Shown in pieces: positions 33,029 through 58,072 of a stretch of 58,072 bases of DNA; positions within the stretch are counted from its first letter, which is position 1, and every line of letters begins with the position of its first letter. This stretch comes from a virus. The stretch spans positions 1-58,072 of the IMG/VR virus record IMGVR_UViG_3300017605_000517; one strand, written 5' to 3'. The translations under genes and the position numbers were made by a program. The notes beneath the pieces were generated by a model. It did no database searches. It was not told where the DNA came from and was given only the letters and a program-made list of their open reading frames with translations.

Positions 33029-33268
33029 CTATCGCTCGATACAAAGGCAGAGTATTGTCGCGGAGAATGTGAGGTGTCCGGTCACCGTATCCCCATTAGG
33101 CATGTATCCCTGAGTAGCGGTCAGGACAACGTAATCCGTAAGGACACGAGGAACCCCATCACCCTCCGCGCCACCATCGTACTGGTAAACCCGTAGCCAT
33201 TCTTCAATGGCACGGGTTACCTTCTCGTCGGCAGCAACCTGCTCAGGCGTTCTATCCACGGACGACAA
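33029..33268 (-). CDS. DUF7213-like small protein
   Basis: The 79-residue protein has a helical first half (PEQVAADEKVTRAIEEWLRVYQYDG) and a beta second half (VLTDYVVLTATQGYMPNGDTVTGHLTFS). The V-L-T-D-Y-V-V-x-T-A-x-Q pattern is found in many actinophages, with unknown function. It overlaps the ThyX gene by 17 bases. Its stop codon TAG is the beginning of TAGGAT, a possible -10 box for the next gene. Confidence 0.65.
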   Translation of the reverse strand: MSSVDRTPEQVAADEKVTRAIEEWLRVYQYDGGAEGDGVPRVLTDYVVLTATQGYMPNGDTVTGHLTFSATILCLCIER

Positions 33269-34025
33269 GATAGTTACGGTTCCGGTCGTCTTTCACCCGC
33301 TGGAAGTCCTGGTAAAGGTTCGGCTCCAGGCCCGCCAACCACGAGTACAACTCGACAGCAAGTTCCCTGATCTCCGCGTCGGCATGCAGCGACCCTCGCT
33401 TCTCCAGGAACTCACGCCAAACCCGATGATTCCCCGTCAGCACCACTGCCGTAGGGGTCATGTTCGGCAGCACACACCGCGCAGCCTCCCGTGACTCCTT
33501 CTTCAGGGCTGTTCCGGTCACCCCCTGAGCACGTAGGACCGATTCCCAGATGCCAACCAACTTGTCATACGCCCTCACGGCATGTGACCACACCTCCTCC
33601 ACAATGCCCTGAGTTTCGCTCACAGGCGCTGTGGGGTCGGATTGCCATAGGAACTGGTACAGCGGGGGGATAATCGGCTGTGTGTCCATCTCGAGCCGTG
33701 CGAATCGCTGGCTCAGCTGACTGGGGGACATGTGCCGATGCCGAACCAGCTCATGGGTCAGCGATCGAGACACATCGGTGATGCGGAAGGTTACCGATCC
33801 ATGCTCGAGCACCGAGAAGTGCTTCTGATTGATGATGTTGGCCAGGTACGCGTGGTTGTCGGCTGTCTCGGGGTTGGGCTTGTTCCATGACTCGTAGCAA
33901 GACCGACCTGCGAACTCGGACAATTGCGATGCGTCCTCGCTGCCGTCAGCTTCCCACTCTCCCCCGGTGCTGTCTTCCGCGTTATCAGGGATGAACGCGG
34001 TTCTGGCGATAATGGTTACCCTCAT
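33252..34025 (-). CDS. thyX: Flavin-dependent thymidylate synthase ThyX
   Basis: The 257-residue protein makes dTMP from dUMP with methylene-tetrahydrofolate, FAD and NADPH. The signature RHRHMSPSQLSQR (a variant of RHRxxSxNxxSxR, with Q where N/E is common) is at residues ~96-108, and the substrate/FAD helices follow (KKESREAARCVLPNMTPTAVVLTGNHRVWREFLEKR). It lies in the leftward operon upstream of head genes and overlaps its upstream neighbour by four bases. Because ThyX covers dTMP synthesis, the TS-fold proteins in the other arm are free for another job. Confidence 0.93.
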   Translation of the reverse strand: MRVTIIARTAFIPDNAEDSTGGEWEADGSEDASQLSEFAGRSCYESWNKPNPETADNHAYLANIINQKHFSVLEHGSVTFRITDVSRSLTHELVRHRHMSPSQLSQRFARLEMDTQPIIPPLYQFLWQSDPTAPVSETQGIVEEVWSHAVRAYDKLVGIWESVLRAQGVTGTALKKESREAARCVLPNMTPTAVVLTGNHRVWREFLEKRGSLHADAEIRELAVELYSWLAGLEPNLYQDFQRVKDDRNRNYLVVRG

Positions 34026-46654: not shown

Positions 46655-46986
46655 AGTTCAAAAAGACCGAGATTCCCAACCATGAGTATATGATCGGGTG
46701 CTCAACTGCTGAGTGGGTGATGATAAAGGCTGCCCTCCAGGAAGTATCCAATATGCTTAAGGGGCACTGTGATCACCCAGATGAGCTAAGACTTTATGCT
46801 CTTACTAGGGTGATGTACGCAGAGATGGAGGAATTCAGCAGTGTCAACCGGCACGTACCGCTTCAAGACGAAGCCTTACCGTCACCAGGTCCGGGGAGTC
46901 AAGTTCGCGTTCCGGCAGTGGCATCAGGGGTTGGGAGCGGCGCTGCTGTTCGATCCTCGAACGGGGAAGACCAAGACGTCAATTGA
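46651..46986 (+). CDS. Small helical protein with long overlap
   Basis: The first ~65 residues (MKFKKTEIPNHEYMIGCSTAEWVMIKAALQEVSNMLKGHCDHPDELRLYALTRVMYAEMEEF) form a helical domain. The last ~45 residues, beginning SSVNRHVPLQDE, overlap the helicase gene by 146 bases in another frame and are probably not conserved. Either the overlap is real or a small indel displaced the true stop. Function is unknown. Confidence 0.55.
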   Translation: MKFKKTEIPNHEYMIGCSTAEWVMIKAALQEVSNMLKGHCDHPDELRLYALTRVMYAEMEEFSSVNRHVPLQDEALPSPGPGSQVRVPAVASGVGSGAAVRSSNGEDQDVN

Positions 46987-48430
46987 CGCGATAGGCGCAC
47001 TGCACCTAAAGCACGGTATAAGACGAGTCCTCGTAATATGTCCTAACCGTGTGATGGGGACGTGGGTGCAGGAATTCCTCACCCACTCTCCATTGCATGT
47101 GCAGTGTGTCATCTGGGATGCCAAGGGAAGGCGTCGGGCGTTACCCAAGACGGTGACCCCCTATGACATCCAGGTGGTTGTGGTCAACTTCGAAGCGTTT
47201 GCCACTCCCGGCAAACGTCTTCCTTCTGGCCGAAGATCGAAGTCAACAGGACGATTCGCCACCCGTAAGAAAATCTTGACCTGGTTGGGGGACACACCAG
47301 CCGCCTGCATCATTGACGAGGGTCACAAGATAAAGTCGGCATCCGGTAAGGCGTCAAACCTCATAGTGTCCATGCGCAAGAACTTCAGGTACCGATTACT
47401 ACTGACCGGTACGCCGATAACCAAGGCGCATCGTGCACACGACATCTACATGCAGTGGCAGTGGGTCAACCCCTCGCGGTTCAAGCGGTGGGGTGCCACG
47501 GCTGAGGAGTTCCGCAACCACGTCGGGGTATGGCGGGAACATCTCGGGTTCCCCGTATGGGTCCGTGCGCGTAAACAAGGACTGGAGGAGATGCGCCGGG
47601 GTATGCACCGTGATGCGATGGTAGTGCGCCGGGAGGATTGCTTTGACCTACCCGATAAACTGCCCGATCGGTTCATCCCCATCAAGTTGAGCACGAAGAC
47701 ACGCCGTGCATACAACGACATGGCCGAGACAATGATCGCTGAAATTGAGGAGGGGTTGATCGCAGAGGCCTCAATCCCGATCGTGGTTGCTCTGCGCCTG
47801 CAGCAAATCACCTCGGGGTTTGTCGGCATCAAGGAACCTCGGCGGATGTTCAACTCCCGCACCCGAAAGTATGAAGACAAGATGGTGTCGCTAGCACACC
47901 GCCTCGGTACCGAGAAACTGAACGCCCTCGAAGACCTGTTGGTTGATGAGTACCTCGAGCGAGACATAGACGAGAAGTTGGTGGTGTGCGCCAAGTACAT
48001 ACGTGACCTGAACGACATCACCAAGTTGATAACAAAACTCGAGATTCCGCAATTCACCATCCGGGGAGGCATGACCCGAGCGGAGTCAGACGAACAGATC
48101 AGGTTGTTCAAGAAACACAACAGAATAGGGGTCATGCTGGTGCAGCCGGATGCGGCAAGCCTCGGCATTGACCTGTCAACAGCGTCACACATGGTGTGGT
48201 ATTCGCTGACCAACTCCTGGGTGAACTGGACTCAGTGTTGTGATCGGACCGCGCTGAGTAGTAGAGCAACTCAGAACACATATCTGCAGGTACCTGGCAG
48301 TATAGACGAGTTGCTATATCGGTCGCTGATCAATGATACTAACGTCGCGCGATACATCTTAAAACGGCCTGGAGAGTTGAGGTTGAAAAGTGAAAAACGT
48401 GATAGTCGAGGGACCGGACGGAGCCGGTAA
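46841..48430 (+). CDS. SNF2-type DNA helicase
   Basis: The 529-residue superfamily 2 protein has Walker A (DPRTGKTKTS, motif I), DEGH (IIDEGHKIK, motif II), LLTGTPI (motif III), and a C-terminal half with VVCAKYIRDL, LVQPDAASLGIDL and WTQCCDRTAL (motifs IV to VI, with QCCDR instead of QxxGR). It resembles phage SNF2-like helicases of replication operons. A role in unwinding or remodelling phage DNA is inferred. The start GTG at 46841 overlaps the upstream gene by 146 bases. Confidence 0.85.
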   Translation: MSTGTYRFKTKPYRHQVRGVKFAFRQWHQGLGAALLFDPRTGKTKTSIDAIGALHLKHGIRRVLVICPNRVMGTWVQEFLTHSPLHVQCVIWDAKGRRRALPKTVTPYDIQVVVVNFEAFATPGKRLPSGRRSKSTGRFATRKKILTWLGDTPAACIIDEGHKIKSASGKASNLIVSMRKNFRYRLLLTGTPITKAHRAHDIYMQWQWVNPSRFKRWGATAEEFRNHVGVWREHLGFPVWVRARKQGLEEMRRGMHRDAMVVRREDCFDLPDKLPDRFIPIKLSTKTRRAYNDMAETMIAEIEEGLIAEASIPIVVALRLQQITSGFVGIKEPRRMFNSRTRKYEDKMVSLAHRLGTEKLNALEDLLVDEYLERDIDEKLVVCAKYIRDLNDITKLITKLEIPQFTIRGGMTRAESDEQIRLFKKHNRIGVMLVQPDAASLGIDLSTASHMVWYSLTNSWVNWTQCCDRTALSSRATQNTYLQVPGSIDELLYRSLINDTNVARYILKRPGELRLKSEKRDSRGTGRSR

Positions 48431-48920
48431 GTCAACCCTAGTGAGCTACCTCTCACAAGCCCTGGATCTGAAGGTTCACACCCGCGCATCCAGCAGCAAG
48501 GATGGTCCGGTTGAGGACCTGGCCGAATGGGTGACCGAGCAATTCAGGTGGCACGAAGACACGGGGATGGCCACAATCTACGATCGACACCCGATCATCA
48601 GCGAACCCATCTATGGACCAGCAATCCGAAACAAGACTCGTCCCAAGTTTGATGACGAGGCCTGGATCAGGCTTGTTAAAGCCGAGTTGTATAAGACCTC
48701 GGTGGTGGTGTGGTGCCGTCCTCCGATTGAGGTTGTGTCCGCCAACGTGACCGATTCCATGCACGAGCAAATGCACGGAGTCCTGGCCAATATCGGTAGG
48801 GTGTATACGGAATACACCATGGCCTACTTCCGGTGGCGTGGTGATAAACGGATGTACAACTACAAGACCAACGCAGAATCTGAGTTGGCTGCGGACCTGA
48901 AGAGGATGATCGAACAATGA
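48390..48920 (+). CDS. Thymidylate-kinase-like dNMP kinase
   Basis: The 176-residue protein starts with VIVEGPDGAGKSTLVS (P-loop, residues ~5-19). YDRHPIISE (residues ~67-75) matches the DR motif of the thymidylate kinase family and the C-terminal half is helical with TVNDK-type charges. It transfers a phosphate to a dNMP, perhaps 5-hydroxymethyl-dCMP in this context, as T4 gp1 does. It overlaps the helicase gene by 41 bases and the next gene by four. Confidence 0.75.
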   Translation: MKNVIVEGPDGAGKSTLVSYLSQALDLKVHTRASSSKDGPVEDLAEWVTEQFRWHEDTGMATIYDRHPIISEPIYGPAIRNKTRPKFDDEAWIRLVKAELYKTSVVVWCRPPIEVVSANVTDSMHEQMHGVLANIGRVYTEYTMAYFRWRGDKRMYNYKTNAESELAADLKRMIEQ

Positions 48921-49579
48921 CCACGACTAGCCTTTGCACCGATCCCGAGCACGCCAACCTGAAGGCATTCATGGAACCGGCTGACCGCCTGGGAAACATG
49001 TTCACGGAGCAGGGGAATCTCCAGCGGTTACTGGGTCGCAACGTCGCAACGATGACCCCTGATGAGTTGGCCTCGTATCGGGTGGAGATGGCCTTCGCTA
49101 TGACCGACGAACTCCACGAGGCGATGAATGAGACCGGATGGAAGTCCTGGGCATCCTCCCGTCATGTGAACGAGGAAGAGATCAAAGATGAGCTGGCTGA
49201 TACTTGGTTGTTCCTGCTCAATCTCATGCTGTCGGTCGGTATGACTGCCGAGGACCTGTTCACTCGGTATGCCCAGAAGCGAATCAAGGCTGAGCGCCGA
49301 TTGGCTAACAAATATCAGGGTACTGAGAAGTGTCCGACGTGTAAGCGCGCCTATGACAACGATGCGGTGAAGTGCACACCACCAAATGTCTGCGCGTATG
49401 TGGTGGAAGATGAGTCCTTCAATCCCGATCAGCAGTGCGCGCGATGCAAGCACGACTTCGCGGACACTCACTGCGTGGCGGCTACCGGCCAGGGGTTCGG
49501 GTGGTGTGACACCCGTAAGGTGTCGTTTGACATCGCCGGTCATGTTGTAGGCGAGAAGACTGATGCTCAACTCGTTTGA
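48917..49579 (+). CDS. All-alpha NTP pyrophosphohydrolase with zinc fingers
   Basis: The 220-residue protein has two parts. Residues ~45-130 contain DELHEA (E65, E68) and EEIKDELADTWLFLLNLMLSVGM (E92, D95), the ExxE...ExxD metal motifs of the MazG/dUTPase_2 family. Residues ~138-215 have CPTCKRAYDNDAVKC...C and CARCKHDFADTHC...WC, two zinc ribbons. It could convert dCTP or dUTP to monophosphate, like T4 gp56. It is coupled to both neighbours. Confidence 0.75.
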   Translation: MTTTSLCTDPEHANLKAFMEPADRLGNMFTEQGNLQRLLGRNVATMTPDELASYRVEMAFAMTDELHEAMNETGWKSWASSRHVNEEEIKDELADTWLFLLNLMLSVGMTAEDLFTRYAQKRIKAERRLANKYQGTEKCPTCKRAYDNDAVKCTPPNVCAYVVEDESFNPDQQCARCKHDFADTHCVAATGQGFGWCDTRKVSFDIAGHVVGEKTDAQLV

Positions 49580-50546
49580 GTATAGTGGTGTGGTGGAGAT
49601 GCACGACGTTACTTGTCGTGCTCTCTTCCGTGGTCGACTAGGAACCGACTACAACTGGTCGGGATCATCCGAGGTGGGGCTGGACAATGTCACGCTGGGG
49701 GTGCGATCATTCGCCACCCCCACCTATGACTTGTCTCGTCTGTGGTTGACGCAGTCGCGCTGGAACACGATGGTTCGACAGTACATCAATCCCGAGGCAC
49801 TTGACGACACACTCGGCATGGTGCAGACCCACCTGGCCAAGTCCAAGCGCAAGTCAGGTACCGCAACGCTACGGATGATGCCGACCGATGAGGAGATGGA
49901 CGAACCCAGCGAGGAAGTGGTTGACCTCCAAACCAACCTAGTGCAGGGTAAGAAATCTGGTCGCCAGGTCCGGCGCAGGTGGGGGTCATGCATGCTGGCG
50001 ATGACCTACCGTAATGTGCCACACCCCACAGTAACCTTGACCAGTCGAACAACCTACTTCGGGTACCTGGCAATCATGGACGCGATGGTAGCCAATGTAT
50101 TCGCCCAGAAGTGCGGAGAGATCACGGGGTTTGATCCGGCTGAGATGCGGTTCGTGTGGCACATCAACCTGGCTCAGTACCACGGCTTCCGATCTCTGGC
50201 ATTCCCGGCAGGTGACAAGCATTTTCTTGATCGTTTAAATACGTATGTGGACGATAACCGGGCATGGGCAGTAGCGAAGAAACAAGGGCGTATCGGTCTT
50301 CTGAGAACCTTGACTGGGTACCGGCGTATCCTCAAGTCCGATCGCGCAGGCGTGCTGTATGGCGATGAATCCTTCTCATCTTTCTGCCGGGTACGTCGTC
50401 GTTTCCATACCGAGATCTTGGGGTACGAATACGCACAGCAGTTTAACGGAGGATCACGGATCGGGGGAGAACACGGGGTGAACGCCTTCAGGCCGGTACC
50501 CAAGTTGTTAGCCAAAACACTTAACTTCTCAGCGATCGGGAGATAG
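49563..50546 (+). CDS. Divergent thymidylate-synthase-fold protein (Asp variant)
   Basis: The 327-residue protein aligns with the TS core by position and spacing: RRRWGSCMLAMTYR (C143 at the catalytic Cys position), TLTSRTTYFGYLAIMDAM (S161/R162 for the TS RS pair; D173 eleven residues later where TS has Asn177), and AQKCGEITG...RFVWHINLAQYHG (matching AQQC...FVWTGGDTHLY). This is a TS-fold homolog with Asp, suggesting a cytosine substrate, but several active-site positions differ, so its reaction is unproven. The ATG overlaps the upstream gene by 17 bases. Confidence 0.6.
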   Translation: MLNSFEYSGVVEMHDVTCRALFRGRLGTDYNWSGSSEVGLDNVTLGVRSFATPTYDLSRLWLTQSRWNTMVRQYINPEALDDTLGMVQTHLAKSKRKSGTATLRMMPTDEEMDEPSEEVVDLQTNLVQGKKSGRQVRRRWGSCMLAMTYRNVPHPTVTLTSRTTYFGYLAIMDAMVANVFAQKCGEITGFDPAEMRFVWHINLAQYHGFRSLAFPAGDKHFLDRLNTYVDDNRAWAVAKKQGRIGLLRTLTGYRRILKSDRAGVLYGDESFSSFCRVRRRFHTEILGYEYAQQFNGGSRIGGEHGVNAFRPVPKLLAKTLNFSAIGR

Positions 50547-50548
50547 AC

Positions 50549-50794
50549 ATGGTCATGCTCACAGCCGCAGAGCTGGAAGCCAAGCGAGAGGAATTGCTCC
50601 GGCAGTTCAATGAGTACACCACCCAGGTGAAAGATGGCCTGGATGCGGTAAGCGAGGCGCTAGGTTTTGGGGAGTACGCACGTGCCTGCTCGCTCATGAA
50701 CACCGTCAGTGCACACCAAGCTCAGGCGTCCGTCAGGATGCGTGCTGTCCTTGTCAAGAACGGGTTCGTAGTTAGGGAGCGTTCCGATGCTTAA
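50549..50794 (+). CDS. Small helical protein between the TS-fold genes
   Basis: The ATG at 50549 follows GGGAGATAGAC. The 81-residue helical protein (TAAELEAKREELLRQFNEYTTQVKDGLDAVSEALGFGEYARACSLMNTVSAHQAQASVRMRAVLVKNGF) has no enzymatic motif. It may be a binding partner or cofactor of the two TS-fold proteins. It overlaps the next gene by eight bases. Confidence 0.65.
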   Translation: MVMLTAAELEAKREELLRQFNEYTTQVKDGLDAVSEALGFGEYARACSLMNTVSAHQAQASVRMRAVLVKNGFVVRERSDA

Positions 50795-51668
50795 CTTTGA
50801 TCAGCCCCACCCCCTCACGCAATACCAGTATCAGGGAACCATGCGATATCTCGCCAGTGCCCTTATGCGTGAGAAGCCTTTCAACATTGGAGAGTGGCAG
50901 TCTACCGATATATCGCAATCCCCGCTGCACGCGACACATGAACTGTTAGATACGGTTATCAAGTTCGATATCCCGCAGACCCAGTCAGAACTGGCTGACG
51001 CCCTGGTTCCCTACCTCAACCTGGATTGGTCAGAAGAGCACTTCGGGGAGCGCGTCGGTGGTATGCCCGTCAACCCCCCTCCCTCTCACGAGCGCTGGCC
51101 ATGGGCACGCCACAACGGCAATCACCAGAATGGGGAACAGCAGCAGTTCGCCCACACCTACCCCGAACGCATGTGGCCTAAACGTGCAGGGGCAGGCCAA
51201 TACTACTCGATGGGGGTAAGTCGTCCCAATCTCTTTGGTGTTCGATTCGAGTATGGTGATCTGCGAGACGTTGTGGATCTACTGCTTCGGTCACCGATGA
51301 CGCGTCAAGCGTACCTGCCCATATGGTTCCCGGAGGACACTGGGGCACACCACCGCCAGCGGGTACCGTGCACCCTTGGCTACCACTTCATGATTCGACA
51401 GGGTCAGTTGTCGTGCCGGTACTACATGCGATCGTGTGACCTGATCCGGCACTTCACCGATGACGTGTACCTGGCCGGTCGACTCATGCAGTGGGTCACC
51501 GATCAGTACAATGAGGCCAATCGCGAGGCGCAGTGGACCAACGAGATCCCTTACCAAATAGTTCCGAATCTCAAGCCCGGTCTCCTGACGATGTACATCT
51601 CCTCGCTGCACGCGTTCACGGGGGACCAGTGGCGGCTTAAGCAGATGATAAAGGAGCCAACGACATGA
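50787..51668 (+). CDS. Predicted dCMP hydroxymethylase (TS fold with Asp in place of Asn)
   Basis: The 293-residue protein is a clear TS-family member: RQRVPCTLGYHFMIRQGQLSCRYYMRSCD matches TS LPPCHxxxQF...LSC...QRSCD, with C195 the nucleophile and R215/S216/D218 the phosphate-binding set. Eleven residues after R215 is D226, where TS has the Asn that reads dUMP; T4 dCMP hydroxymethylase has Asp there. It would convert dCMP to 5-hydroxymethyl-dCMP with methylene-tetrahydrofolate. The start is after GGGAGCG. The product awaits proof. Confidence 0.7.
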   Translation: MLNFDQPHPLTQYQYQGTMRYLASALMREKPFNIGEWQSTDISQSPLHATHELLDTVIKFDIPQTQSELADALVPYLNLDWSEEHFGERVGGMPVNPPPSHERWPWARHNGNHQNGEQQQFAHTYPERMWPKRAGAGQYYSMGVSRPNLFGVRFEYGDLRDVVDLLLRSPMTRQAYLPIWFPEDTGAHHRQRVPCTLGYHFMIRQGQLSCRYYMRSCDLIRHFTDDVYLAGRLMQWVTDQYNEANREAQWTNEIPYQIVPNLKPGLLTMYISSLHAFTGDQWRLKQMIKEPTT

Positions 51669-52141
51669 CTCGACCGTCACGCCATGAGGTCCTCATGCGG
51701 CAGGCTCAGATCGTCGCAGAGCGGTCAACGTGCTCCCGCGCACATGTGGGTGCCGTCATCGCCCATGACGGGCGTGTCGTGGCTCAAGGCTACAACGGTG
51801 CCCCTGCTGGGATGCCTCACTGCTCTCATGAGTGTAAGTGCGAATTGTTGCCGGATGAGGACGACGAACATGCGGTGTGGTGTCCAATGGGCACTCCCAG
51901 TCCGAGACACTGCAAGATATCGGTTCATGCCGAGGTTAACGCCATAGCCTTCGCGGCAAAGCATGGTGTCGCAACGGCCGGAGCGGTGCTGTTCACTACC
52001 ATGGCACCATGTCTGCCGTGCTCTCAACTCATCATCAACGCCGGAATCATCGGGGTGGTCTACAGCAAGCCGTATCGGTATGACGAGGGAATCATGCTGA
52101 TGATGGACGCTGGTCTGTCGGTGGTGATGGGGGTTGAATAA
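51665..52141 (+). CDS. dCMP deaminase
   Basis: The 158-residue protein has the cytidine-deaminase signature HAEVNAIAFAAKHG (catalytic Glu) and TMAPCLPCSQLIINAGI (two zinc Cys). The additional CSHECKCELLPDED segment is the second zinc site found in dCMP deaminases. It makes dUMP for ThyX, and in the presence of the hydroxymethylase it would compete for dCMP. It overlaps both neighbouring genes. Confidence 0.9.
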   Translation: MTRPSRHEVLMRQAQIVAERSTCSRAHVGAVIAHDGRVVAQGYNGAPAGMPHCSHECKCELLPDEDDEHAVWCPMGTPSPRHCKISVHAEVNAIAFAAKHGVATAGAVLFTTMAPCLPCSQLIINAGIIGVVYSKPYRYDEGIMLMMDAGLSVVMGVE

Positions 52142-54731
52142 GCGCCTGCGTTTGGCAGTGCGCAATAGTCAGTGCAACAACTGCAAACTGTCGAGAGATA
52201 CAGATGAAGAGGACGTATGCGTCACTGGCGTCGGACCCAACGGCGCTACTGTCGGGATTGTGACACAGTTCCCGGTGTCCCCTGAGTCATCACACAAGAA
52301 GGCCATAGAAGAGTCATTGTCACAGCTGGGGCTGGACCCCCAGACATTCATGTGGATGTCCGCTGTCAAGTGCCGGACCTGGTCAGATTCGCCTAGCAAG
52401 ACGGACCTCAAGGCGTGTCGTCCTTACCTCACCAATGAGCTCGAGTTCCTGAATCTGACACATGTGTTGGCTCTGGGCGGTGAGGCATTGTTCGCCACCA
52501 CCGGGCGTAGCGGAATCACGAAGTGGAGGGGTAAGACCTACGAACATCCGGCCGGACCAGTAATCTTCCCCACCATCAGCCCGTCAATGGTCACCCGCAA
52601 CCCGAAGTACATTGAGGGATTCTTGGGTGACCTGCGATATTTCTCCAATCTGGTTCGGGGTGTGGAAGCCGACCAGGATCCTTGGCATCTGCCATATGAC
52701 GACCAGTGGACAAACGTCTACACCAAGAAACAACTCAAGGCGATGGCAGAATCCATTGCCACTGCTGACGCAATCTCCTACGACATCGAAACCACCGGAG
52801 CATCAGAGTTCGAAAAAGACGCAGCCATCGTGTCCCTCTCGGTTACCACGATGCACGGGGAGGAACCTCACGTCTGGACCCTACCCCTATTCCACCCTGA
52901 GTCACCGTTTCGCGGGATATGGCGTGAGATCATTGAGCGTCTGGCCAAATACTTCTACCGACCTAAGTACCGCATCGCGCACAACGCCAAGTTTGATACC
53001 CGGTGGTTGGTCCACTTCGGGATGCCCAACCTTCTCCCGACGTTTGACACCATCATCGCTACCAGCCTGCTTGACGAGAACCGTCAGAAGGGCTTGAAGC
53101 CGTTGGCCCAGCAGCTGTTGCAGGCCGACCCGTGGGGTATCGATACCAAGGATCTGCTGACCACACCGCTTGATGAGGTTCTGGACTACAACGGCCTTGA
53201 CACTTGGCACACTCTACGGCTGTGGCGGTTGTTCAGGGTTCAACTAGTGAAGCAGCCACGGTTGGCAAAACTGATGCTCCATCTTATGATGCCTGCCGTT
53301 CAGGAGCTCGTGTATGTCGAGCGTCGGGGTGTCTACGTTGATCAGTCCAAGTTGGTTGACAACTGGGCAAAGGTGCAGGGCACGCTGGCCGGTATTGAAA
53401 GTCAGTTGTCTGAGCACATCCCCGACCCCGACGAGGTACCTGACCGGTTGAAGCATAAGAAGACTGGTGAGATCAAGGTCAATTTCAACGCGTCCAACTT
53501 CCTGCGATGGTGGCTCTTTGAGTATCTTGAGTTACCAGTACTTAAGCGGGGGAAAACTAAAGATGACGGTCGGCCTGGTGATCCGTCATGCGCTGAAGAC
53601 ATCATGGCGGCATTGGTACTGAGCAACCCTGAGACACCGGTACCAAAGTTGATGGTTGACCGAGTGGAGTGGAACAAGTACGACACTGCCTTCTTCGCCC
53701 CGTACCACGACCAACTGCAGGCATCACCCGATGGCCGAATCAGGTCAACGTTCAAACCGTGGGGAACGGTCACCGGTCGGCTGTCGTCGGGTAAAGAAGA
53801 CCAAGAGAAGATCACCGGCAAGGCACAGCGCCGAGGGGTCAACCTTCAGCAGGTACCCCGTAACAAACTGGTACGTGGTGTGTTCGGGGCAGCTCCGGGC
53901 TGGGCATTTGTCGAAGCTGACTACTCCCAGATTGAGTTGCGCATCGCTGCGTTCCTGGCGCGCGAGCAAACCATGCTGCATCTGTACGCCACCGGTCAGG
54001 ATATCCACATGGCTACCGCTATGCGGATGACCGGTAAACCGGCGCATCTCGTCACGCCGGAGGAACGCAAGAAGGCCAAGGCAGTCAACTTCGGATTCTT
54101 GTACGGCATGGGCTGGGCCAAGTTCATTCACACCGCGTTCGCCAACTACGAGCTGATCGTGTCCGAGGAGGAATCGCGCGCCTTCCGCAAGTCGTTCTTC
54201 GACCAATTCCCGGACCTACTCCCCTGGCATGGGCGGCAGCGTAAGCTGGCATCGACGTACAAGAGGGTTGAGACCCTGATGGGTCGTATCCGGCACCTGC
54301 CCGACATCGACTCGGCCAACGCTGACGTACGCGCTGAGGCAGAGCGCCAGGCAATCAACTCCCCGGTACAGGGCTTCGCTTCAGATATGGCGCTGTTGTC
54401 GTTGGTGCACACCGCGCGACTGTTCCGGAGCGAGGGCATCGAGGCGTACCCGATTGGTGCCGTGCACGATGCGGTTAACTTCGAGATCCGCATTGACGAC
54501 CTACCCCGGGCGCTGCCGCTCATCAAGCGCACCATGGAAAACCTACCCCTCGAGAAGTTGTTCGGTATCAACCTCACCGTGCCCATCGTGGCCGATCTCA
54601 AAGTCGGGTCGCACTGGGGCGGCGCTACCGAGATACCCGCTGAATTGCTAAGGTCTGGCAACCGTGCCAATGTGGGGCTAAGAAATTGGCTGCAGGACAC
54701 AATGAAGTATGAATTGGAGTTGGCCGCATGA
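52134..54731 (+). CDS. DNA polymerase I with N-terminal iron-sulfur UDG-like domain
   Basis: The 865-residue protein has three parts. Residues ~1-180 are a uracil-DNA-glycosylase-like domain with four Cys for a 4Fe-4S cluster (CNNC and KC...AC) but without GEAPG or the catalytic His (TISPS), so it is probably inactive. Residues ~210-370 are a 3'-5' exonuclease (DIETTG, AHNAKFDTRW, YNGLDTWHT). The rest is a family A polymerase (DYSQIELR, RKKAKAVNFGFLYG, VHDAVNFE). In the last motif Ala replaces the usual Glu of HDE. TTG start after GATGGGGG. Confidence 0.9.
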   Translation: MNKRLRLAVRNSQCNNCKLSRDTDEEDVCVTGVGPNGATVGIVTQFPVSPESSHKKAIEESLSQLGLDPQTFMWMSAVKCRTWSDSPSKTDLKACRPYLTNELEFLNLTHVLALGGEALFATTGRSGITKWRGKTYEHPAGPVIFPTISPSMVTRNPKYIEGFLGDLRYFSNLVRGVEADQDPWHLPYDDQWTNVYTKKQLKAMAESIATADAISYDIETTGASEFEKDAAIVSLSVTTMHGEEPHVWTLPLFHPESPFRGIWREIIERLAKYFYRPKYRIAHNAKFDTRWLVHFGMPNLLPTFDTIIATSLLDENRQKGLKPLAQQLLQADPWGIDTKDLLTTPLDEVLDYNGLDTWHTLRLWRLFRVQLVKQPRLAKLMLHLMMPAVQELVYVERRGVYVDQSKLVDNWAKVQGTLAGIESQLSEHIPDPDEVPDRLKHKKTGEIKVNFNASNFLRWWLFEYLELPVLKRGKTKDDGRPGDPSCAEDIMAALVLSNPETPVPKLMVDRVEWNKYDTAFFAPYHDQLQASPDGRIRSTFKPWGTVTGRLSSGKEDQEKITGKAQRRGVNLQQVPRNKLVRGVFGAAPGWAFVEADYSQIELRIAAFLAREQTMLHLYATGQDIHMATAMRMTGKPAHLVTPEERKKAKAVNFGFLYGMGWAKFIHTAFANYELIVSEEESRAFRKSFFDQFPDLLPWHGRQRKLASTYKRVETLMGRIRHLPDIDSANADVRAEAERQAINSPVQGFASDMALLSLVHTARLFRSEGIEAYPIGAVHDAVNFEIRIDDLPRALPLIKRTMENLPLEKLFGINLTVPIVADLKVGSHWGGATEIPAELLRSGNRANVGLRNWLQDTMKYELELAA

Positions 54732-55069: not shown

Positions 55070-55251
55070 CTGGATTTGAACACTCTGACGAGGAAGAGAC
55101 GTACAACGGTCTGGTTGATTGGCTGAAAAAACGCCGCGATGAGTACGCCGATTGGATCAGCGAGGGCACTATTGCCTACGACACTATCGACATACTACTG
55201 GATGAGGTTCGCGATGCCGGGGTTGAGGGATTCCTACCATGGCAAAGGTGA
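55066..55251 (+). CDS. Small acidic helical protein
   Basis: A 61-residue protein (MTGFEHSDEEETYNGLVDWLKKRRDEYADWISEGTIAYDTIDILLDEVRDAGVEGFLPW) with an acidic, helical form. It overlaps both neighbours. Function is unknown; it may regulate the nuclease gene that follows. Confidence 0.6.
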   Translation: MTGFEHSDEEETYNGLVDWLKKRRDEYADWISEGTIAYDTIDILLDEVRDAGVEGFLPWQR

Positions 55252-56441
55252 AGTGTCGAACTTGCAAGGACTCCGGGTTTGAGGGACGCGGTAACGGATA
55301 CGCGGATGTGTGTACCGATTGCGGGGGACAGTCGGCATGGGCTGCAACGTTCCAAGGGCCCGCGTTGTATATCGACAGCGGCAAGCGCATCACGACGCAC
55401 AGCATGCTGTCGTCTATGCGGCGGTGTGCCAACCAGACACGGTACAAGTACGCCGAGCGGTTGAAGGTTCGCTACGCCACCAAGCGTGACCGGCCACTTA
55501 AGCGGGGTACTTGGTTCCATGCCTTGCTCGAGGAGCATTACGCGGGCAGGTCATGGAAGGCCAAGCACGCGGAGTTCACTGAGAAGTACCACAATCTCAT
55601 GGATGAGGAGAAAGAGGCACTGGGGGACCTACCCCACGAACTCCGTGACATGATGAGGTCATACCTCTGGCACTACGGTGCTGACAAGAACGACCCTCAC
55701 CACGGCACCCGCACGATTGCCACAGAACTCATGTTGGAGTGTCCATGGCCGGATAGTGAGGACGGGCTGGACATCTACCGGTGTCGTGTTGACCGGCTGT
55801 ACGAGGACGAGTGGGGTTTATGGATCGAGGACACCAAGACGAACAAGACCTTGCCCAACAACGCAGTCAGGATCCTCGACGCTGCCAGCCCGCTCTACAT
55901 TTGGTGTGCACGAGAGAACGGGTACCCGGTTGAGGGGTTCGTCTGGAACTACATACGGGCGAAAGTACCAACCAAGCCAACACTCTCGTATGCGGGTACC
56001 AAACGTGAGGGGTTGTCCAAGAAAGCGATAGACACCGACTACCCCACGATGATTCGCGGCCTCCGAGAATTGGGCTTGAATCCGGGGGACTATAAGGAGT
56101 TGCTCCGTCCTTTATACAACCAGCGATACCGACACGGGGAAGTTCAGACCTCGCCCTTTTTCCGACGTGATTTGCTGGAGAAGGACGAAGGTATGTTGCA
56201 ACGTGCCGTTGCCGCTGGCATGCGTACGCGTGACCGGATGCACGGCTATGAGTGGGACGATCCTGACTCAGTGGAACGCAGTAATGAGCGATCGTGTGAG
56301 TGGATGTGCTCGTTCACGAACCTATGCATGACAGAACTCAAGGGCGGTGATGCGCTGACACTACGTCGTCGTGAATTCCGCGTAGGTGACCCACTCGATT
56401 ACTACCAAGACAAACCAGAACCAGAATCCGAGGGAGTTTGA
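55239..56441 (+). CDS. PD-(D/E)XK nuclease with zinc ribbon and Fe-S cluster
   Basis: The 400-residue protein has an N-terminal zinc ribbon (KCRTCKDSG...VCTDCGG), then a Cas4/AddB-type nuclease: RGTWFHALLE, VDRLYEDEWGLWIEDTKTNKT (Asp, then E-D-x-K). An upstream Cys (MRRCANQTR) and CEWMCSFTNLC at the C terminus fit the four-Cys Fe-S site of this family. It is the exonuclease of a recombination pair with the Sak4-like ATPase that follows. Confidence 0.85.
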   Translation: MAKVKCRTCKDSGFEGRGNGYADVCTDCGGQSAWAATFQGPALYIDSGKRITTHSMLSSMRRCANQTRYKYAERLKVRYATKRDRPLKRGTWFHALLEEHYAGRSWKAKHAEFTEKYHNLMDEEKEALGDLPHELRDMMRSYLWHYGADKNDPHHGTRTIATELMLECPWPDSEDGLDIYRCRVDRLYEDEWGLWIEDTKTNKTLPNNAVRILDAASPLYIWCARENGYPVEGFVWNYIRAKVPTKPTLSYAGTKREGLSKKAIDTDYPTMIRGLRELGLNPGDYKELLRPLYNQRYRHGEVQTSPFFRRDLLEKDEGMLQRAVAAGMRTRDRMHGYEWDDPDSVERSNERSCEWMCSFTNLCMTELKGGDALTLRRREFRVGDPLDYYQDKPEPESEGV

Positions 56442-57076
56442 CCACCTCCGCCAATCACGACACCATGGAACCCCAACCGTTGGGAGGATATCCACCGATG
56501 AAGACACCGGCATATGCGCGCACTCGCTCGAAGCGATTCCGTGCGGGTAGCCGACGCAACAAACACCTTCAGATCGTCATGTGCCCCGAACCGAAGGTGT
56601 GCCTGGTCCATACCACCCGACCGACCCCACCGGCCCTCAGGATGCGTCTGACGGCCTGCGAACAGCGATGGGTGGACGACGTTCGAGCGGGTCGTATACA
56701 CGCTCACACGCTTAAACCGCTAGCACCTCGCCAGGAGATGTTGTTCGCCCTCCGCCAGCGCATCAACAACAAACGCTTTGCTGATGCAGGCATCATCAAT
56801 GCATCTTCCTATGATCCCCGTATGCCCATCGATGACATGTCCGACCAGGGGCTGATGATCCTTGAGCACACCGCAGACACTGTAGCTGAGGCCCTTCGAT
56901 TTGCTCTGGTGTATGGGGGTGATCCGAGAACGACACAGCAACGGGTTCAGGCGATGGTCAACGAGCGCATGTCTGAGCCACCTAATGCCGAGGGTCGTAT
57001 GCAGATGGGTGTGGACTACGGGTACAGGCGCAGGCGTATGGACATCTCTGACTGGTGGTACCCTCGTGGCGAGTAA
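56438..57076 (+). CDS. Hypothetical protein between nuclease and Sak4-like ATPase
   Basis: About 212 residues if started at the TTG at 56438; an ATG at 56498 with GGAGG upstream would give ~192. A basic N terminus (TPAYARTRSKRFRAGSRRNKHLQIVMC) is followed by helical repeats (EQRWVDDVRAGRIHAHTLKPLAPRQEMLFALRQRINNKRFADAGIINASSYDPRMPIDDMSDQ). Not recognised; the recombination context suggests DNA binding. Confidence 0.6.
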   Translation: MTTSANHDTMEPQPLGGYPPMKTPAYARTRSKRFRAGSRRNKHLQIVMCPEPKVCLVHTTRPTPPALRMRLTACEQRWVDDVRAGRIHAHTLKPLAPRQEMLFALRQRINNKRFADAGIINASSYDPRMPIDDMSDQGLMILEHTADTVAEALRFALVYGGDPRTTQQRVQAMVNERMSEPPNAEGRMQMGVDYGYRRRRMDISDWWYPRGE

Positions 57077-57896
57077 AACTGAATACTCCAAGATAGCCAA
57101 ACAGAAGATCCGGAATCCAGGTGAGGAGCCTCGCGAACCGCGCCTCCTGGTGTACGGACGGAACAAAAAGGGCAAGACCACCTTCGGCAACAGTGCGCCG
57201 GATGTGTTGGCCCTCGATCCCGATGATCAGCCATCGGCGCTGAAACCCACCTGGCCTATCAACCAGTGGGAGGATATGCACGAGGCGTATCAGTACCTCA
57301 GGGCAGGGAACCACCCTTACCGCTGGGTCAACATGGACGGACTCACCGGTATCTACCGACACGCCTTCAACTGGGTGGCACACCAGAAGGGCGAGAAGGA
57401 GATTACCAAACGTCCGGAGCAGAAGAAGATCCAGTATTACGGGCAGGCCAATCAAGCCTTTGAGAACATGATCCAGAACTTTCACTCACTCCGGCACATG
57501 GGTATCGTTTTCACCGCTCATGAAAAGATGGTGCCGGTAGTTGAGTTGATCGCGGGTAAGCCTATGTCGGTTTCTGACGATATGGAAGACGACGAGGATT
57601 ACACACCAACCAGTTACCAGTACATCGTGTCGTTGCCCAAGGGTGCGCGAGCAGCCATCAACGGCATGGTTGACCTCACCGGACGTATCTATGTGGTGCG
57701 CGGTAACTTTGAGCGCCGGGTGAAGGTCGATGGCAAGTGGACAACTGAAGAGTACACCAAGCAGCGCCGGTTGTTCATCGGGGTTGACGACATGTACGAA
57801 ACCGGGTACCGGAGCGAACACCTGCTGCCGGACATAATTGAAGACCCTACCGTTCGGAGAGTGGTCAGGGCGTTGAGAACAGGAGAGATCAAATGA
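57066..57896 (+). CDS. Sak4-like RecA-fold ATPase
   Basis: About 276 residues from the GTG at 57066. The P-loop is VYGRNKKGKTTFG (residues ~27-39), and the Walker B-like DPDDQP and WVNMDGLTGIY and the VFTAHEKMV strand are as in phage Sak4/AAA ssDNA annealing or recombination ATPases. It is preceded by a PD-(D/E)XK nuclease and followed by an SSB-like protein, forming a recombination module. The start overlaps the upstream gene by 11 bases. Confidence 0.8.
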   Translation: MASKTEYSKIAKQKIRNPGEEPREPRLLVYGRNKKGKTTFGNSAPDVLALDPDDQPSALKPTWPINQWEDMHEAYQYLRAGNHPYRWVNMDGLTGIYRHAFNWVAHQKGEKEITKRPEQKKIQYYGQANQAFENMIQNFHSLRHMGIVFTAHEKMVPVVELIAGKPMSVSDDMEDDEDYTPTSYQYIVSLPKGARAAINGMVDLTGRIYVVRGNFERRVKVDGKWTTEEYTKQRRLFIGVDDMYETGYRSEHLLPDIIEDPTVRRVVRALRTGEIK

Positions 57897-58072
57897 CGGT
57901 CAAGGCGAAGATCCTCGACTTCAGCGGTGTGGAAGACAAGGCGGGGGGATTCCGGCCACGTAGGAAGCCGGAGGGCGACTACTACGCTCGAATCACGGCG
58001 GTGGCTGACCACGAGAGCAAGGAGGGCAACCACGGCTGGGTATTTACGGTTAAGGTGGACGGTGACGTTCGC
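57893..58072 (+). CDS. ssDNA-binding-like protein, N-terminal part (gene crosses the circle join)
   Basis: The ATG at 57893 overlaps the ATPase stop (ATGA). The 60 codons here (MTVKAKILDFSGVEDKAGGF...) continue in frame at base 1 because 57932-58072 repeats 1-141. See the entry at 1-729 for the full protein. Confidence 0.8.
   Translation, partial: MTVKAKILDFSGVEDKAGGFRPRRKPEGDYYARITAVADHESKEGNHGWVFTVKVDGDVR
57932..58072. repeat. Terminal direct repeat, right copy
   Basis: Exact copy of bases 1-141; see that entry. Confidence 0.9.

Follow-up and report, generated by a model that had tools for sequence, protein, structure and literature searches.

In phage T4, modified cytosine is supplied by gp56, which acts on deoxycytidine and deoxyuridine triphosphates (dCTP and dUTP), by gp42, a deoxycytidine monophosphate (dCMP) hydroxymethylase, and by the kinase gp1, together with alpha- and beta-glucosyltransferases. 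The hydroxymethylase requires Asp145 for hydroxymethylation (PMC6400193). Mosigvirus phages (the RB69 group) make 5-hydroxy-dCMP with an enzyme of the thymidylate synthase (TS) superfamily (PMC13390438). AfhB (PDB 9iqc/9iqu) is almost the same protein as RB69p048 of phage RB69. In the MetaGPA study, the TS homologues of modified phage contigs were best told apart from those of unmodified ones by two positions, Asp177 and a changed residue 147 (PMC8670742). Of the enzymes tested on the DNA of Stenotrophomonas phage AXL3, all 35 whose sites contain G/C failed to cut it, and only two with A/T-only sites cut (PMC7504290). The operon described here lies in a soil phage, the 58,072-base virus record IMGVR_UViG_3300017605_000517 (the window, that is, the whole stretch of DNA that was analysed). 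With moderate confidence, we read it as a dCMP-directed cytosine-modification module that works at the mononucleotide level with two TS-fold enzymes, the products of genes A and B. This reading is based on Asp177 and Thr/Ser147 in gene B, on the predicted fold and the Cys, Arg and Asp residues of gene A, on the pairing of the two genes, and on the relation of a neighbouring pyrophosphohydrolase to gp56.

Two proteins with a predicted TS fold in one operon

The initial annotation had placed a kinase, a pyrophosphohydrolase, two TS-fold proteins, a deaminase and DNA polymerase I (PolA) in one coupled operon, and all of them were recovered there with family matches (Table 1). Gene B is predicted from its sequence to encode a TS-superfamily enzyme acting on dCMP. 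Its AlphaFold model (predicted local distance difference test score, pLDDT, 83.6) matched TS and MilA in Foldseek, which indicates a TS fold by model. The active-site residues of the window protein are Cys195, Thr196, Arg215, Asp218, Asp226 and His275, with an unusual Arg192. The catalytic Cys, Arg166 and an Asp at the position of Asn177 are present in 99/99 gene B relatives (90 distinct). Residue 147 in E. coli TS numbering is Thr in 88 and Ser in 11 of these 99 proteins, and never His. The pair Thr147/Asp177 is common to T4 gp42, MilA, AfhB and AXL3_28, whereas canonical TS has His/Asn. Three positions ahead of the catalytic Cys, T4 gp42, MilA and AXL3_28 carry Asp, AfhB carries Glu and TS carries Leu, but every one of the 99 gene B relatives has Arg. 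Thus, instead of the canonical ThyA residues Asn177, His147 and Leu143, gene B has Asp226, Thr196 and Arg192.

Gene A had no Pfam match and no sequence match in the PDB. Its AlphaFold model, made with 42 sequences, reached a pLDDT of 90.8, and all 20 PDB matches of this model at E<=0.001 in Foldseek belong to the TS superfamily. The best match was the phage dCMP 5-hydroxylase AfhB (9iqu, 7.9e-6), followed by MilA and T4 dCMP hydroxymethylase. Structural matches in a viral library were also TS-like, and included a protein of phage PMBT14 encoded just upstream of gene B there. Cys143, Arg162 and Asp173 are invariant in 42/42 gene A proteins and correspond to C146, R166 and N177D of TS. The distance from Arg to Asp is 11 residues, as in TS, and that from Cys to Arg is 19 compared with 20 in TS. 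The residue three before the Cys is mostly Trp or Leu. The initial annotation had proposed a TS fold for both proteins, with Asp at the position that reads deoxyuridine monophosphate (dUMP) or dCMP. This Asp is found throughout the gene B relatives and the gene A proteins (D173). The fold of gene A, which is invisible by sequence, is supported by the model and its TS-only PDB matches. The cytosine-directed chemistry proposed at the same time is supported by gene B, whose Asp177 and Thr/Ser147 match the signature of modified-cytosine contigs (PMC8670742).

The pyrophosphohydrolase had been proposed to be of the gp56 type, and the comparison agrees. It is 27% identical to T4 gp56 over 135 aa (E 4e-9), PF08761 is found in both proteins, and phrog_173, phrog_18650 and phrog_12184 are shared. 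Judged by these matches, it is a genuine relative of the T4 dCTPase/dUTPase. The protein ends in a Cys-rich extension, also present in locus L005, that holds two CxxC motifs (CPTC, CARC) and is a possible zinc ribbon. The kinase had been taken to be gp1-like. Instead, it belongs to phrog_761 and matched neither PF21448/DNMK nor phrog_139. Phrog_761 is common to the window kinase and the RB69 kinase found near the 5-hydroxy-dCMP synthase.

Among the known systems, T4 further resembles the window in its dCMP deaminase, in Cys148, Asp179 and Thr149, which have equivalents in gene B, and in a modified nucleotide that is thought to be made before replication. Unlike T4, the window has a second TS-fold protein, lacks Asp145 and Ser94 in gene B, replicates by PolA, and shows no recognised glucosyltransferase. 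The label "T4-like" used in the initial annotation is therefore apt for the gp56 relative and broadly so for the gp42 counterpart, but not for gp1, the signature residue (Arg), the polymerase or, as far as the GT2 and carbamoyltransferase searches go, the decoration. RB69 and other Mosigvirus phages share with the window a TS-superfamily enzyme acting on dCMP, the phrog_761 kinase, and AfhB as the nearest structure to gene A. However, RB69 has one TS-fold enzyme as far as seen, with Glu before the Cys, as well as arabinose genes, and no sequence similarity to gene A was detectable. AXL3 encodes a TS with Asp177/Thr147, a kinase, a nucleoside triphosphate pyrophosphohydrolase, a deaminase and ThyX, but its TS has Asp before the Cys and shares 25% identity with gene B. 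The cytosine-modified MetaGPA contigs share Asp177 and an altered residue 147 (PMC8670742). A gene B relative of 45% identity in locus L059 lies near a carbamoyltransferase of a kind shown to act on 5-hydroxymethylcytosine (PMC8670742), but L059 has no gene A, and the gene A-bearing phages have no carbamoyltransferase.

Pairing and distribution of genes A and B

Relatives of gene B were found in 106 phage records and relatives of gene A in 85; like the window, 85 cultured phages of actinobacteria, Muddy among them, have the two genes side by side. In actinophages, the two genes are equally numerous for each host genus: Gordonia 68/68, Mycobacterium 9/9, Streptomyces 4/4 and Microbacterium 2/2. 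The order helicase, kinase, pyrophosphatase, A, B, deaminase, PolA, Cas4-like exonuclease and RecA-like ATPase is shared by Muddy, Triscuit, Zuko, Emalyn, Lauer, JacoRen57, Shrew, Margaret, Dre3, NoShow and Cozz. The proteobacterial phages PMBT14, Serbin and Strzyga keep a large part of it. An IMG/VR search with the gene B profile yielded 353 loci. Nearly all module genes were present across the 66 gene A-bearing loci analysed, with the helicase in 60/66, the deaminase in 66/66, the Cas4-like exonuclease in 56/66 and the RecA-like ATPase in 43. Since the order is common to about 66 further loci, it is not due to chance. In a search seeded on gene A, gene B followed downstream in 17/17 loci that were long enough, and each of the 17 again has Arg three positions before that Cys. 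In these loci, genes A and B are always paired. In several Gordonia phages (L007, L008, L014, L015 and L018), a lysin B gene lies inside the nucleotide operon, between B and the deaminase.

Among 84,980 cellular genomes, only five gene B relatives turned up, mostly on contigs of metagenome-assembled genomes, which makes this an essentially viral family. Other phages, most of them larger, have a gene B relative but no gene A. In such phages, an IMPDH/GuaC-like gene was recognised by eye directly upstream of B (L045, L054, L058, L060, L062, L066, L083-L085, L088 and L090). The proteobacterial proteins encoded upstream of gene B are probable counterparts of gene A, as the one of PMBT14 matches by fold, although the actinophage gene A profile gave no significant match to them (E 0.1-0.8). 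The gene A alignment proved too divergent to serve as a contig-search query. Co-evolution of A and B beyond linkage was also considered and dropped: identity matrices of 61 loci with A, B, deaminase and PolA gave correlations of 0.89 for A-Pol, 0.67 for B-Pol and 0.58 for A-B, with no special A-B signal.

Possible chemistry and alternative explanations

In the proposed pathway, the gp56-type pyrophosphatase would remove dCTP (and dUTP), yielding dCMP. Gene B would read cytosine via Asp226, its Cys195 would attack C6 of dCMP, and a substituent would be added at C5. This is most likely one carbon from methylene-tetrahydrofolate, with hydroxymethyl preferred. Gene A would work on this nucleotide too, being either an obligate partner of B or a second-step enzyme. 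The phrog_761 kinase would phosphorylate the modified dCMP and, with host enzymes, lead to the triphosphate, which the PolA of the operon would insert, replacing cytosine in the phage DNA. The analysis itself established which genes are present and how they are arranged, the pairing of A with B, the modelled fold of A, the active-site residues and the kinship of the pyrophosphatase with gp56; the substrates, the chemistry, what A does and the entry of the base into DNA are inferred. The product may carry a hydroxymethyl, hydroxy, methyl or new group. A dCMP-directed role is consistent with the position of gene A nearest to the cytosine-acting AfhB, MilA and T4 dCMP hydroxymethylase, and with the kinase family shared with RB69. 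It is also consistent with the restriction-resistant DNA of AXL3, which has an analogous but distinct gene set (PMC7504290). More tentatively, A and B, one of them an unrecognised family, could jointly build the C5 substituent on dCMP, and the invariant Arg192 of gene B could direct some nucleophile that is not water. The outcome would be an undescribed base in place of cytosine in a large group of actinophages and proteobacterial phages, made without a post-replicative transferase.

Several observations weigh against a cytosine-modifying role, or against naming its chemistry. The template modelling scores (TM-scores) of the best gene A matches are modest, 0.35-0.55, and HHalign found no sequence-level homology between gene A and either gene B or a small profile of TS, T4, AfhB and MilA. 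The TS fold of gene A therefore rests on predicted structure and residue spacing, and its relation to TS, as modelled, is remote. Gene B lacks the T4-type hydroxymethylase signature, Asp/Glu before the Cys and Ser94. The water-activating Asp of T4 and MilA is replaced by the invariant Arg192, and the counterpart of Ser94 is probably His123, two residues before the catalytic Tyr. Since T4 needs Asp145 where gene B has Arg, sequence does not tell which chemistry gene B performs. The PF16861 carbamoyltransferase was found in 0/39 gene A-bearing records and in 2/28 gene A-lacking records, close by in one locus only, and was thus discarded as a general partner of gene B. A GT2 glycosyltransferase was absent from the window and from 38/39 related records, being present only in Zuko (other glycosyltransferase families were not searched). 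Without transferases, the end product would be bare hydroxymethylcytosine unless gene A alters it. In the literature, we found no chemistry for any phage with this exact module. Finally, a deaminase, a dUTPase-like enzyme and a kinase are ordinary parts of pyrimidine supply as well.

This last point leads to an explanation by nucleotide supply, which we regard as unlikely. The deaminase, dUTPase and kinase would feed deoxythymidine monophosphate (dTMP), and A and B would be TS variants without a DNA-modifying role, or would deplete dCTP as a counter-defence. Such accessory enzymes are found in many unmodified phages, and the annotation of gene B as thymidylate synthase fits as well, but Asp177 in all B and A proteins does not, and dTMP synthesis offers no role for a constant partner such as gene A. 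The initial annotation had argued that ThyX frees the TS-fold enzymes for another role. A separate dTMP source is indeed present in the window, but ThyX occurs in only 8/39 module-bearing records, which agrees with the supply explanation. ThyX was thus rejected as a regular companion of the module, and the argument cannot lean on it in general. Triscuit, Zuko, Strzyga and the window encode a ThyA or ThyX in addition to the module. In Microbacterium phage Triscuit, a canonical ThyA (Asn177, His147) directly follows gene B (L003:9831-10628). Gene B is therefore not needed there for dTMP, and this extra TS serves the argument better than ThyX.

Similarly unlikely is that gene A or B encodes a dCMP 5-hydroxylase that depends on flavin, like AfhB and its RB69 counterpart, so that the base is 5-hydroxycytosine and not 5-hydroxymethylcytosine. 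In structure, AfhB matches gene A best, but MilA and T4 dCMP hydroxymethylase do nearly as well. By inspection of the sequences, gene B and AfhB both have Phe in place of Tyr209 and an "AED...SG" stretch of equal length, but the residue three before the Cys is Glu in AfhB, Arg in gene B and, in most gene A proteins, Trp or Leu. The kinase belongs with that of RB69 and not with that of T4. However, RB69 decorates its base with arabinose, and the GT2 search revealed no sugar pathway here. Least probable is a dCMP methylase, B or A, yielding 5-methyl-dCMP and DNA in which 5-methylcytosine replaces cytosine, as in phage XP12: a single Asn-to-Asp change at 177 is enough to convert TS to methylation of dCMP (Liu & Santi 1992, cited in PMC8670742), the residue three before the Cys of gene A is hydrophobic as in TS, and 5-methylcytosine would explain the absent transferases, but Arg192 and His123 of gene B differ from both TS and the hydroxymethylases, and a methylase gives no reason for two enzymes.

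If the reading as a cytosine-modification module is correct, altered cytosine has been missed in many phages of teaching and therapy collections, such as Muddy and, among Gordonia phages, the group of Emalyn, Cozz and GTE2, because annotators label gene B as thymidylate synthase (sometimes noted as ThyX) and gene A as hypothetical. Muddy is a therapy phage used against Mycobacteroides abscessus. The modification would matter for restriction, for defences that recognise modified bases, for the engineering of phage genomes and for which phages are chosen for therapy. The TS superfamily would gain an enzyme family, and Arg would be a fourth active-site state at the position where methylating, hydroxymethylating and hydroxylating enzymes differ. 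We found no published work on restriction of GTE2 or on base analysis of Muddy. As Muddy, Emalyn and Cozz are cultured, the prediction is directly testable in them. A singleton QueC-like N-type ATP pyrophosphatase has been reported in Muddy (PMC6884629).

Layout of the window

The first 100 bases of the window were found again at its right end from 57932, and the first 40 were checked exactly. They belong to a direct terminal repeat (1-141 and 57932-58072), probably of about 140 bases if it runs to the end, and the genome is therefore probably complete. In the open reading frame (ORF) list of the window, the module genes are tightly packed, with mostly overlapping stop and start codons (Table 1).

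Table 1. Genes of the module and associated genes in the window
Feature	Position	Strand	Matches and remarks
SNF2/DEAD-like helicase	46841..48430	+	PF00176 2.7e-23, phrog_62 1.7e-87; opens conserved replication block
P-loop nucleotide kinase, thymidylate-kinase-like	48390..48920	+	phrog_761 1.1e-15
All-alpha nucleoside triphosphate pyrophosphohydrolase	48917..49579	+	PF08761 1.4e-10; phrog_173/18650/12184
Gene A, TS-fold by model	49563..50546	+	phrog_13667, function unknown; no Pfam match
Small ORF between genes A and B, 81 aa	50549..50794	+	coding-like codon usage; phrog_6760 E 0.0046 only, no firm family
Gene B, TS superfamily	50787..51668	+	PF00303 7.1e-7, phrog_160 1.4e-30
dCMP deaminase	51665..52141	+	PF00383 4.8e-22, phrog_174 3e-49
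DNA polymerase I family, 3'-5' exonuclease and N-terminal uracil-DNA glycosylase (UDG)-like domain	52134..54731	+	PF00476 4.5e-74, PF01612 6.5e-15, PF03167 1.3e-11
Cas4/RecB-like PD-(D/E)XK exonuclease, downstream of PolA	55239..56441	+	PF12705 2.7e-15, phrog_1218 1.7e-65
RecA/Sak4-like ATPase	56901..57896	+	PF13479 1.1e-20; closes conserved block
ThyX, flavin-dependent thymidylate synthase	33252..34025	-	PF02511 5.1e-43, phrog_85 4e-60

The UDG-like N-terminal domain of PolA (PF03167) gave no match in Muddy, Cozz and Strzyga, and is present in the window, PMBT14, Serbin, Triscuit and Zuko. The structural and lysis genes of the window are of the ordinary siphophage type.

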